From Flavobacteriaceae bacterium LSUCC0859 (lineage in GTDB: Bacteria; Bacteroidota; Bacteroidia; Flavobacteriales; Flavobacteriaceae), in assembly GCA_022239325.1 (NCBI GenBank), contig JAKOGP010000003.1:62001-126000 (forward strand): a stretch of 64,000 bases of DNA. The letters run 5' to 3'. The translations under genes were made by a program, and so were the position numbers. The notes under the pieces were generated by a model, which saw only the letters and a list, made by a program, of their open reading frames with translations, searched no databases and had not been told where the DNA came from. Shown here piece after piece: positions 48,786 through 52,020 of this stretch. Positions within the stretch are counted from its first letter, which is position 1. Every line of letters starts with the position of its first letter.

Positions 48786-49559
48786 ATGCTTTTGACTGTT
48801 GAATTTTTAGGTACAGGAACCTCGCAAGGCATACCCGTAATTGGGAGTGAACACCCGGTCTGTCTTAGCGATAATCCCAAAGACAAAAGATTGCGTGTTT
48901 CCGTGCTCTTGTCATGGGATACCTACCACGTTTTAATAGATTGTGGGCCAGATTTTAGAGCGCAAATGCTCAGGACTAATCCCTCCAGTTTAGACGCTAT
49001 TTTGTTTACTCATGAACATGCAGATCACACCGCAGGCATAGACGACATTAGGCCATTTTTTTTCAAGCAGGGTGCCATTCCTGTATATGCTCATAAAAGA
49101 GTCCTCAAAGCATTAAAGAAACGTTTTGATTATATTTTTAAGTCTCATGATAAATATCCAGGAGCACCATCTGTTGACATTCACAGGGTAAAAAAGAACC
49201 AATCTTTTGATGTTTGTGGTAAAAAAATCACACCAATTAATGCAGCACACAACAGGCTTCAGGTTTTTGGTTACAGAATAGATCAGTTTGCTTATTTAAC
49301 AGACGTGAAATCTATGAAAACTTCCCAAATGAAAAAATTAGAGGGATTAGATGTTTTAGTAGTTAACGCCCTGAGGCAAGAACCGCATCACAGTCACTTT
49401 AATTTGGACGAGGCTATTTCTTTTGCTGAGCAAATAGGGGCTAAACAAACCTTTTTCACACATATAAGCCACCATCTTGGTTTTCATGAACAGGTAAATA
49501 AAGGATTACCTGAAGGAATTTATTTGGCTTATGATGGTTTGAGACTGGAGTTGTATTGA
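48786..49559 (+). CDS. PhnP-like metallo-beta-lactamase-fold phosphodiesterase
   Basis: 257-residue cytoplasmic hydrolase of the MBL fold. It begins VEFLGTGTSQGIPVIGSEHPVC, the glycine-rich start of PhnP-like proteins, and has the metal motif FTHEHADHTAGIDD (HxHxDH) near residue 77 and later VNALRQEPHHSHFNLDEAI and FTHISHHLGF with further His ligands. PhnP hydrolyses cyclic phosphodiesters; the natural substrate here is unknown. A TAAATTTG box (48767-48774) lies 11 bases before the ATG. Confidence 0.87.
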   Translation: MLLTVEFLGTGTSQGIPVIGSEHPVCLSDNPKDKRLRVSVLLSWDTYHVLIDCGPDFRAQMLRTNPSSLDAILFTHEHADHTAGIDDIRPFFFKQGAIPVYAHKRVLKALKKRFDYIFKSHDKYPGAPSVDIHRVKKNQSFDVCGKKITPINAAHNRLQVFGYRIDQFAYLTDVKSMKTSQMKKLEGLDVLVVNALRQEPHHSHFNLDEAISFAEQIGAKQTFFTHISHHLGFHEQVNKGLPEGIYLAYDGLRLELY

Positions 49560-49597: not shown

Positions 49598-49825
49598 ATG
49601 AAATCTAGAATCTTTATGTACCTCTTTATATTTACAGCCTTAATAGCACTGTACCAATTTAAGAGCGCTTCTAATTACGTGACCAATACTCAGAATGCCT
49701 TACAAAAATATCAAGATAGAGAGGGAGATTTAGAAAAGTTGCAGCAGGAATATAAAAAACTAGAAGAAAAGCATCAGCGCATGCTAGACTCTTTAAGCCA
49801 GCTCAATAGATCTGAAAAGTTCTGA
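49598..49825 (+). CDS. Small membrane-anchored coiled-coil protein
   Basis: 75 residues from the ATG at 49598 (the longer frame starts at a TTG inside the preceding gene). An N-terminal membrane helix (RIFMYLFIFTALIALYQF) is followed by a charged coiled coil rich in Gln, Glu, Lys and Leu (YQDREGDLEKLQQEYKKLEEKHQRMLDSLSQL). It resembles FtsL/FtsB-like topology, but is not close enough for a call. Its last 52 bases overlap the end of the convergent esterase gene. Function unknown. Confidence 0.65.
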   Translation: MKSRIFMYLFIFTALIALYQFKSASNYVTNTQNALQKYQDREGDLEKLQQEYKKLEEKHQRMLDSLSQLNRSEKF

Positions 49826-50433
49826 GGAGAAACTCCATGACCCATAGGGTAAGTTTTAAAGGTGTTTTCAATTTTCAAAACGCTTAAAAGGTCTGGTGTT
49901 TTTTTTGCCCAATCGTAGGGAACAACCATGTCTTGACTCCCGTGAGAAGCAAAAACCTTAAGATTGTTGTAAGCCTGTGAAGAGGTAGCTACCTCATATA
50001 AATCTTCGTTTAGGTACCCACTTAGACAAATTAGATTTTTATAGGCGCCAGCATAATGAAGGCCTAGAGCAAAACTTAAAATACTTCCCTGACTAAATCC
50101 CAACAAGCTAATTTGATCCTTATCTAATTGATAGTGCTCGCAAGCCGCAGTGATAAATTCATGGAGTAAATCTCTGGAAGCTTTGGCCTGTTCTAGGTCT
50201 GACCACTTTCCTTTTTCAGCATCAAAATTAATGGCATACCAGGCATTTCCATATGGTTGCATGGCATATGGAGCTCTTACAGAAATCACAAAATATTCTT
50301 GAGGTAGGGCTTCTGCAAAGGGAAAAAGATCATTTTCATCGCTGCCATAGCCGTGAATTAAAAAAATGGGTTTTGGATGTTCAAGCCCATCTATTGCAGG
50401 TCTTGTAATATGATGTAAACTTTCTATGCCCAT
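49774..50433 (-). CDS. Alpha/beta-hydrolase esterase (phospholipase/carboxylesterase family)
   Basis: 219-residue hydrolase. The nucleophile elbow is LLGFSQGSILSFALG (Ser about residue 115), the Asp lies in SHGSQDMVVPYD and the His in YPMGHGVSPQNF. FLIHGYGSDENDLFPFAEALP is the oxyanion region. Bacterial members of this family are carboxylesterases or lysophospholipase-like. The start codon touches the stop of the DUF4870-like gene with no gap, so it is in one operon with that gene and with the dihydroorotase-like gene. Its 3' end overlaps a plus-strand gene by 52 bases. Confidence 0.88.
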   Translation of the reverse strand: MGIESLHHITRPAIDGLEHPKPIFLIHGYGSDENDLFPFAEALPQEYFVISVRAPYAMQPYGNAWYAINFDAEKGKWSDLEQAKASRDLLHEFITAACEHYQLDKDQISLLGFSQGSILSFALGLHYAGAYKNLICLSGYLNEDLYEVATSSQAYNNLKVFASHGSQDMVVPYDWAKKTPDLLSVLKIENTFKTYPMGHGVSPQNFSDLLSWLKESSMR

Positions 50434-50763
50434 TTATCTTATAAATTTAAACCAGGCTTGAAAATAAGTTCCAAGGATTGGAACTTTGTTTTGAGTGCCT
50501 TGTATGGCACTCCAAAACCCAAAACCCCAGAGTAGCATATACATGAGATACAAACCTCCAAAAGCAAATTCGTGAAACCATTGGCTTATAAACAAGGCAA
50601 AAGCATGGAAAAGAAGGTGAATACCAAAAGCTTGACGTACATGAAATCTCGAAAAATCAGTGGGTTTGTTGTTGTGCATGCTCATGGCAATAATGGCTCC
50701 AACTATGGTGAAATATCCAATAACTGCCACTTTCTGGCCAGCTTTATTCAAATCTTTACTCAT
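50434..50763 (-). CDS. Small polytopic membrane protein (DUF4870-like)
   Basis: 109 residues with three hydrophobic segments (VIGYFTIVGAIIAMSM, HLLFHAFALFISQ and GLYLMYMLLWGFGFWSAI). RFHVRQAFGIHLL resembles the R-F-H-x-x-Q-A motif of DUF4870-like proteins. Function unknown. It abuts the genes on both sides without a base in between (50433/50434 and 50763/50764), so the three genes are surely one transcript. Confidence 0.75.
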   Translation of the reverse strand: MSKDLNKAGQKVAVIGYFTIVGAIIAMSMHNNKPTDFSRFHVRQAFGIHLLFHAFALFISQWFHEFAFGGLYLMYMLLWGFGFWSAIQGTQNKVPILGTYFQAWFKFIR

Positions 50764-52020
50764 TTATGCAAGGGTCATGTGGTTGTGATGAATACTACCA
50801 AAAGCCTTTCCTTGAAGGTTGCTGTCTAGATAAAGACTGTTTTTAGAGCTGGAGTATATATCCTCTAGTTTCTGAGAATAGCTCACCTTTGGTTTAAACA
50901 AGCTCAAATGAGCTGTTGCACCTTCTGTTAGTTGCGGTGCAATAATACCAAATCGCTGGTGTCCGCGGCTTAGAATGGCTACTGCTTTTTCTATTCCAAA
51001 TAGGCTGTTTAGAACTCCAAAGGCTGCTTCTAATCCAATGGAACCATAACTGGCCTGTTCAAAAGATACTTTTTTGTGTTCTATGTCTAAGGGGTTATGG
51101 TCTGTTGTTACAAAATCTATAACTCCCTCTAACAATGCTTTTTGCAGGGCTTTTTGATCTTTTTTTGTGCGAAGGGGCGGTGAAAGTTTGGCGTGGGTGT
51201 CAAAATTTTCTAAGGCTTCTTCATTGGCCCATAAGTGATGTAATGCTACAGAGCAGCTCACATCTAGCCCCTCTTTTTTAGCCGCTTTAATCCATGCTAT
51301 GCTCTCTAAAGAAGAGATAGTGGGTATGTGTAATTTTCCTCCAGTATATCTGAGGATATGTAAGTCTCTTTGTATTTGTAGGTGCTCAGATAAACTGGGA
51401 TTTCCCTTGAGTCCTAGGCTAGTTGCTACTACGCCCTCATGTGCCACTCCATTTTTTGAAAGGCTGGGAGTTTCAGGAAAGCTGTATACTAAGCCATCAA
51501 AAGACTGGGTGTATTGAAGTGCAATTTTTAATAGATTTGGATTTTCTATAGCCTGTTTATAATCATAAAAGCCAACGGCTCCCTGAGATGTCATGTCATA
51601 TAATTCTGCTAGATCTATTCCCTGAGCGCCTTTTGTAAGTGTACCTAATGGATACACACTGGCAAGGGCTTTTCTAGTTTTATTTTTAATATGGCCTATG
51701 GCATTTTGATTGTCGGGAACTGGATCTGTATTGGTATTTAGCACCAGGTGAGTAAATCCAGATTTTGCGGCTGTTAGAACTCCATTGTTTAGGGTTTCTC
51801 TAGACTCATAACCTGGCTCCCCAAAACTTACCCCGCTGTCTAACCAGCCAGCAGAGACATACAAGCCTTCCTCTTCTATAATTTTTGTTGCCTTAGCATC
51901 TGTGATTTGAGTCCCAATTTTATCAATAATTCCCTCTTTAATGGAAATATCTACTTGTTTAAGATGAAATTTAGGTTGAGAGGGATCTACGAGTGTGGCT
52001 GCTTTGATTAGTATATTCAT
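50764..52020 (-). CDS. Dihydroorotase-like amidohydrolase lacking key metal ligands
   Basis: 418 residues in the class I dihydroorotase/amidohydrolase family: LYVSAGWLDSGVSFGEPGYESRETL, CSVALHHLW (a metal-site His pair) and FVTTDHNPLDIEHK (active-site Asp). But the D-x-H-x-H-x-R motif that binds the first metal reads D61-S-G-V-S-F-G, so both His and the Arg are missing. The protein may be a non-catalytic PyrX-like partner of aspartate carbamoyltransferase, or may have changed function. A catalytic dihydroorotase would then lie elsewhere. It heads the operon with the DUF4870-like and esterase genes. Confidence 0.82.
   Translation of the reverse strand: MNILIKAATLVDPSQPKFHLKQVDISIKEGIIDKIGTQITDAKATKIIEEEGLYVSAGWLDSGVSFGEPGYESRETLNNGVLTAAKSGFTHLVLNTNTDPVPDNQNAIGHIKNKTRKALASVYPLGTLTKGAQGIDLAELYDMTSQGAVGFYDYKQAIENPNLLKIALQYTQSFDGLVYSFPETPSLSKNGVAHEGVVATSLGLKGNPSLSEHLQIQRDLHILRYTGGKLHIPTISSLESIAWIKAAKKEGLDVSCSVALHHLWANEEALENFDTHAKLSPPLRTKKDQKALQKALLEGVIDFVTTDHNPLDIEHKKVSFEQASYGSIGLEAAFGVLNSLFGIEKAVAILSRGHQRFGIIAPQLTEGATAHLSLFKPKVSYSQKLEDIYSSSKNSLYLDSNLQGKAFGSIHHNHMTLA

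Follow-up and report, generated by a model that had tools for sequence, protein, structure and literature searches.

A probable non-catalytic dihydroorotase homologue as structural partner of aspartate transcarbamoylase in Flavobacteriaceae, encoded away from pyrB

Flavobacteriaceae bacterium LSUCC0859 encodes a dihydroorotase (DHO) homologue that, judged by its sequence and by analogy with characterised systems, is probably catalytically dead and a structural subunit of PyrB, the aspartate transcarbamoylase. The gene lies in the window, that is, the whole stretch of 64,000 nucleotides that was analysed (Table 1). With good confidence, its product may be read as the non-catalytic PyrB partner of a class A2 aspartate transcarbamoylase, PyrX-like and unlinked from pyrB. 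Dimers of this pseudo-DHO would bridge PyrB trimers and hold them, as the active DHO does in Aquifex and PyrX in Pseudomonas; such bridging would keep PyrB assembled and active, and DHO catalysis would fall to another enzyme, a member of the PRK09236 family. The new evidence presented here is the coupling of pseudo-DHO presence to the type of PyrB.

Table 1. Features discussed in the text (positions in the window unless a locus is named; G, L, f and C numbers denote genomes, loci, families and contigs)
Feature	Position	Strand	Basis or remark
Pseudo-dihydroorotase (proposed non-catalytic PyrB partner), 418 aa	50764..52020	-	ORF, DHO models, structure, alignment
Degenerate metal motif D61-S-G63-V-S65-F-G67 replacing D-x-H-x-H-x-R	51820..51840	-	Counted from start codon at 52020
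Tyr154, position of Aquifex DHO metal ligand Asp153	51559..51561	-	Alignment; numbering as in PMC3880350
Phe181, position of beta-site His180	51478..51480	-	Alignment; numbering as in PMC3880350
Thr234, position of beta-site His232	51319..51321	-	Alignment; numbering as in PMC3880350
HHLW, residues 261-264, present; not a metal ligand	51229..51240	-	
DHNP, residues 307-310; Asp307 the sole metal ligand kept	51091..51102	-	Alignment
Leu311, position of last His of DHAPH	51088..51090	-	Alignment
109-aa protein, hydrophobic by eye, abuts pseudo-DHO gene	50434..50763	-	Conserved neighbour in Flavobacteriaceae
Carboxylesterase/phospholipase (Abhydrolase_2), abuts 109-aa gene	49774..50433	-	Conserved neighbour in Flavobacteriaceae
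PRK09236 dihydroorotase	L002 1453-2817	+	NCBIfam
PRK09236 dihydroorotase	L003 1192-2529	-	NCBIfam

Several NCBIfam models spanned the protein, among them PRK07627 (E = 1.5e-82) and TIGR00857 (E = 1.5e-73), each below its cut-off: PRK07627, the best match, reached 277.9 of 442 bits, and TIGR00857 248.1 of 279.05. The best 25 of its 34 NCBIfam matches all stayed below their cut-offs, and Pfam by itself gave just a sub-threshold match to Amidohydro_1. The best family matches are named dihydroorotase, and a relative in Rufibacter is annotated likewise. The nearest solved structures were type-I DHOs (PDB 3mpg, E = 1.1e-51). An AlphaFold model made with 26 sequences had a mean pLDDT of 93.2, and its best structural matches, 4bjh, 3d6n, 2z00 and 4yiw, were ties, with Z scores from 54.8 to 54.2 (4bjh_A at 54.8, other type-I DHOs within 1). 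The protein is a full-length type-I DHO homologue.

The first-pass annotation had seen D-S-G-V-S-F-G where dihydroorotases have D-x-H-x-H-x-R, and this was confirmed. By alignment to an intact relative, the Aquifex residues His61, His63, Asp153, His180 and His232 correspond to Gly63, Ser65, Tyr154, Phe181 and Thr234 of the window protein, and Asp305 is conserved as Asp307, which leaves one of six metal ligands. The substrate Arg of HxHxR is replaced by Gly67, and the last His of DHAPH by Leu311. HHLW and DHNP, which had been taken for surviving parts of the active site, are present as written; as active-site parts, they supply only Asp307 as a metal ligand. The protein does not show the set of features of a catalytic PyrC, namely D-x-H-x-H-x-R, the Asp/Lys bridge, the two beta-site His and DHAPH. 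For Aquifex DHO, His61, His63 and Asp153 are reported as the working alpha site, and changing the beta-site residues His180 and His232 to Ala as having little effect (PMC3880350).

Loss of the metal motif is common to the relatives of the window protein. An alignment of 153 proteins comprised the window protein, 60 order relatives drawn from the 88 other order genomes with a match, 12 degenerate class members drawn from the 44 genomes that have a match and belong to the class but not to the family, and 80 named relatives from Flavobacteriaceae and close kin, some of which may overlap with the other sets. Both His of HxH were kept in 0 of the 153 (0/80 named, 0/60 order and 0/12 degenerate class). 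None of the six ligands was left in 7 proteins, one in 125 and two in 9; some relatives retained a partial site, with three ligands in 10/153 and four in 2/153. The catalytic site was lost in all but one class member examined: G209 (L189), the thirteenth class locus examined and left out of the 153-protein count, has an intact active site. Sixty-five positions were invariant in 38 intact relatives; 30 of these are still in place in 85% or more of the 42 degenerate proteins examined, whereas 11 survive in 20% or fewer and count as lost. Among the 11 are the second HxH His, the Arg, the two His of the beta site and the final DHAPH His. The first HxH His is still present in 11/42 and Asp153 in 15/42. 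Since the replacement residues vary among relatives, no alternative site is conserved.

The assembly (2.17 Mb, 12 contigs, 99.76% complete) carries pyrB on contig C4 and the pseudo-DHO gene on C6; the two are unlinked, in agreement with the annotation, which had noted that the gene is not next to pyrB. PyrB has 308 aa, and its gene directly follows an ORF that looks, by eye, like PyrR. It is 52% identical to the PyrB adjoining PyrX in Sinorhizobium (S. meliloti), and 35-36% to those of Klebsiella, Aeromonas and Proteus. The search for a second, intact pyrC, which the annotation had proposed, yielded L002 (454 aa) and L003 (445 aa), two more proteins resembling DHO, with 48% mutual identity. 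Scoring 592.8 and 711.9 bits, they pass the PRK09236 cut-off of 535. Both read D-x-Q-x-H-x-R, in which Gln stands for the first HxH His, the other ligand His being conserved, and neither can be called an HxH pyrC. The structure nearest to L003 is the Porphyromonas gingivalis DHO 2gwn (E = 3.3e-165). The Lys region KLFLGSST of L003 reads SDDGLYM in L002. PRK09236 proteins are about 23-26% identical to the window protein. With two other DHO-family genes present, the window gene is not the only dihydroorotase in the genome, and a PRK09236 protein is probably its working DHO. From their sequences, L002 and L003 may differ in metal centre or substrate.

Co-occurrence was examined in an order sample of 146 genomes and a phylum sample of 392, of which 108 belong to the window's class by kinship labels. 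In the order sample, PyrB was found in 112 genomes, the pseudo-DHO in 89 and both in 85; the 30 genomes with neither include small f15 genomes. No pseudo-DHO was found in any of the 25 order genomes of family f4, all 25 of which have PyrB. Two further genomes, G032 and G073 (220 and 260 contigs), have a vertical PyrB and no pseudo-DHO match. Four of the 89 genomes with a pseudo-DHO gave no PyrB, a second PyrB search being also negative (G010, G014, G059, G135). Among them, G010 is assembled in two contigs at 99% completeness and has the pseudo-DHO and a PRK09236-like DHO; its missing PyrB may be an assembly gap or a real exception. PyrI was found in 0 of the 146 order genomes.

Compared by identity with the PyrB of the window genome, 32 other members of the order came first (75.3-89.9%), then two of the class (69.9-70.5%) and a set of 32 made up of G209 and 31 from outside the class (45.9-62.6%). 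Below these were the 9 of 25 f4 PyrBs examined (38.7-43.7%) and eight PyrI-linked PyrBs (32.6-37.0%). In an 84-row PyrB tree, the pseudo-DHO type (35 rows, 2 of them, G032 and G073, from genomes without a pseudo-DHO match), the f4 type (9 rows) and the PyrI type (8 rows) each occupied one side of a branch, with 100/100 support. Going by these sequences, the nine f4 PyrBs examined are foreign and not a vertical copy.

In the phylum sample of 392 genomes, the DHO/pseudo-DHO family was matched in 360, PyrB in 384 and PRK09236 in 109. For the 108 class genomes, these were 92 with a family match, 105 with PRK09236 and 91 with both; for the 284 outside the class, 268 with a family match and 4 with PRK09236 (G223, G442, G230, G241), G223 and G442 having an intact DHO besides. 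The 16 class genomes without a family match were eight of f4, five of f24, one of f25, and G293 and G467 of f22. PyrI was present in all six f24 and f25 genomes, all without pseudo-DHO; a search of 14 class genomes that do have a DHO or pseudo-DHO match found it in none. Beyond the class, PyrI occurs in G320 and G469 together with a DHO-family match and two PyrBs. All 14 f4, f24 and f25 class genomes without pseudo-DHO have kept a PRK09236 DHO. Since the f4 and PyrI genomes keep PRK09236, the pseudo-DHO follows PyrB and not DHO activity.

Within the class sample, PRK09236 was missing only in f22. In that family, G209 has an intact DHO adjoining a distant PyrB (47% identical to that of the window genome) and no PRK09236; in G293 and G467, no PyrB and no DHO of either kind passed the thresholds applied. 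These two PyrB-less genomes, of the same genus as G209, might be accounted for by a pathway step carried on a plasmid. Two Hymenobacter species carry an intact pyrB-DHO pair on a plasmid (L336, L337), and its DHO is very close to that of G209 in the tree. In three lineages, then, absence of the pseudo-DHO goes with another PyrB type or, in two genomes, with no PyrB. Because presence and absence track phylogeny, the PyrB replacements amount to only about three independent events. Linkage between pyrB and the pseudo-DHO gene was considered for three f8 genomes and rejected: the genes are 2-3 kb apart and divergent in two, and on separate contigs in the third.

Outside the class, at least 24 tandem pyrB-DHO pairs were found, and intact relatives are often encoded immediately downstream of pyrB. 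HxH was intact in 13/13 of those outside f26 for which the motif was read (L167, L168, L179, L193-L201, L223). Among 30 genomes chosen for family spread, PyrB lay within 1.5 kb of the DHO in five (L167, L168, L179, L189, L192), some of the 30 loci ending at contig ends; nine other regions had been chosen for pyrB adjacency. Of the 41 loci from outside the class in the DHO tree, 37 have HxH, the exceptions being one in f45 (G230, with a weak PRK09236 match of 456.6 bits, below cut-off) and three in f26 (G146, G151, G156). In 3/3 f26 genomes (L192, L227, L230), the degenerate DHO gene overlaps pyrB by 4 nt, as in the S. meliloti record, where pyrB and its DHO-like neighbour also share 4 nt, and each of the three genomes has a separate, unusual H-x-H DHO-like protein elsewhere. 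The f26 pair looks like a further PyrX-like case.

The annotation had placed the gene at the head of an operon with a membrane protein and an esterase. The trio does abut and is conserved, a homologue of the 109-aa protein lying downstream on the same strand in 80/80 named relatives and an esterase homologue in 79/80; the 109-aa protein, the putative membrane protein, looks hydrophobic by eye. As to the heading position, the pseudo-DHO gene is preceded on its strand, at a distance of 100 nt, by a GDSL-lipase gene, of which a homologue is found near the pseudo-DHO gene in 17/80 named relatives. In the 27 family loci (L007-L033), each of the two downstream homologues was near the pseudo-DHO in 26. 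BLASTP found neither in 33 order loci from other families (L034, L035 and 31 further order loci fetched with longer flanks). The 109-aa protein had no Pfam or NCBIfam match at E 0.001, and we know of no pyrimidine role for it or for the esterase. The 80 named loci, with flanks of up to 4 kb, some shortened by contig ends, contained no PyrB. A gene of the metallo-beta-lactamase fold (window 48786-49559, + strand) is convergent to the trio, and a homologue is near the pseudo-DHO in 69/80 named relatives. In Rufibacter tibetensis (L338), a class-type pseudo-DHO lies on a 12.5-kb plasmid, flanked by a hypothetical gene on one side and two DUF4199 genes on the other.

Precedents for the proposed role come from Pseudomonas, Sinorhizobium and Aquifex. 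P. aeruginosa PyrB alone is reported to be monomeric and inactive, and to form a dodecamer with its pseudo-DHO (pDHO), which Pseudomonas PyrB needs for trimerisation; in Aquifex, DHO bridges PyrB trimers (PMC7053772). In S. meliloti, disruption of the DHO-like gene adjoining pyrB is reported to cause pyrimidine auxotrophy, and its authors propose PyrX (PMC5929573); from its place next to pyrB, we infer that the DHO-like gene of our S. meliloti record is the smc01361 of that paper. Like PyrX or PyrC' (the pDHO of Pseudomonas, proposed in Sinorhizobium), the window protein is a full-length DHO homologue without zinc ligands, it has a separate DHO in its genome and a similar PyrB, and by analogy PyrB would be expected to need it. 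Thus DHO homology, absence of zinc and substrate residues, a separate DHO, and a PyrB of the DHO-partnered type without PyrI are all found here. On the same analogy, the window protein would bind PyrB physically, form a dodecamer with it and have no DHO activity of its own. Unlike PyrX, for which such adjacency is usual though not a defining trait, the window gene does not adjoin pyrB, and the other DHO of its genome is of the Q-x-H PRK09236 family. The Aquifex aeolicus DHO-ATC reactor complex (class A1; 3d6n, 4bjh) has the same fold (Z 54.5-54.8), although this match to an ATCase-bound DHO is tied with those to DHOs crystallised alone; the Aquifex DHO is catalytic (through His61, His63 and Asp153, PMC3880350), whereas the window protein has lost these ligands. 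PRK09236 proteins of the P. gingivalis 2gwn type have the amidohydrolase fold in common with it and, unlike it, keep D-x-Q-x-H-x-R. Among the matches listed for the open-licence literature, none described a pseudo-DHO in Bacteroidota.

Other explanations of the gene can be weighed against this evidence. With its catalytic residues gone, it could be a decaying pseudogene, an explanation to which we attach next to no weight: the 27 family loci form 351 pairs, of which 174 were usable, and the closest 15 gave a dN/dS of 0.039-0.089, thus below 0.1; no internal stop was found in the 89 pseudo-DHO matches of the order sample. Judged by these sequences, the gene is under purifying selection and not decaying. 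An apparent 1245-aa fusion in one genome proved to be an ORF running into an N stretch, and was trimmed. It is very improbable that the protein is an active DHO independent of the zinc site. Loss of HxH alone is no proof of inactivity, since activity is reported for a Zur-regulated Pseudomonas PyrC paralogue in which the zinc ligands are not conserved (PMC2770081, citing Brichta 2004); in the window protein, however, the substrate Arg and the final DHAPH His have been lost too, the replacements vary among relatives, two other DHO-family genes are at hand, and the gene is absent with other PyrB types although PRK09236 stays. Nor was a zinc-regulated cluster noticed by eye among the neighbouring window ORFs of 46-58 kb.

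A function unrelated to PyrB, for instance together with the abutting 109-aa protein and esterase, is unlikely, if the least so of these alternatives. Conservation of the trio in 79-80 of the 80 named Flavobacteriaceae loci and the four genomes with a pseudo-DHO and no PyrB found would fit such a function, but the trio partners were undetected in the 33 order loci while the pseudo-DHO persists through the class, and its absence matches other PyrB types. The pseudo-DHO might also pair with, or regulate, the active PRK09236 enzyme and not PyrB, given that both families occur in 91/108 class genomes; this we consider highly unlikely, as the 14 f4, f24 and f25 genomes without pseudo-DHO all keep PRK09236. 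A structural role beside PyrB remains our preferred reading.

The number of origins of such proteins was addressed with trees enlarged by intact DHOs of other phyla and by five PyrX-like proteins of Alphaproteobacteria, S. meliloti among them, taken from plasmid records. The degenerate proteins of the class occupied one side of a branch throughout, with support of 99 in a quick 84-row tree, 97/99 in the unmasked tree and 100/98 in the masked one. In the unmasked run, which held a Methylobacterium row in the wrong frame that was dropped afterwards, the five PyrX-like proteins grouped with the class proteins and f26 (92/95). When 110 active-site columns were masked, they no longer grouped with the class proteins. 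A single origin, modelled by forcing the 24 pseudo rows into one clade, was rejected after masking (p-AU 0.0157), in an AU test that left f45 out, was run after the unmasked tree had been seen, and has long branches in play, Pseudomonas PyrX being absent from the trees. Since common ancestry with alphaproteobacterial PyrX is rejected under masking, the class pseudo-DHO probably arose independently of it, and at least two origins of pseudo-DHOs are probable from these trees. The annotation's likening of the protein to PyrX therefore holds for the pseudo-DHO reading and the likely function; as regards lineage, the window protein, unlike alphaproteobacterial PyrX, falls in another clade once masked.

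A fuller history can be offered tentatively, and we regard it as possible but somewhat doubtful. A dead aspartate transcarbamoylase subunit would have arisen a second time, independently of proteobacterial PyrX, at the base of the class of the Flavobacteriaceae: the DHO of an ancestral pyrB-DHO pair would have lost catalysis after takeover by a Q-x-H DHO, become unlinked from pyrB, and now serve as an assembly gate whose separate operon (with membrane protein and esterase in Flavobacteriaceae) could set the amount of active PyrB.

Should the independent origin be borne out, PyrB would have acquired dead-DHO scaffolds at least twice, and the old question of the dead subunit's purpose could be tested by comparison. 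In these bacteria, a gene named dihydroorotase probably belongs to the second enzyme of the pyrimidine pathway and does not encode the third, and the PRK09236 DHO family seems to do the work although its HxH motif is incomplete. Deletion or expression of 'pyrB' or 'pyrC' in Flavobacteriaceae would be misread without knowledge of the pseudo-DHO.
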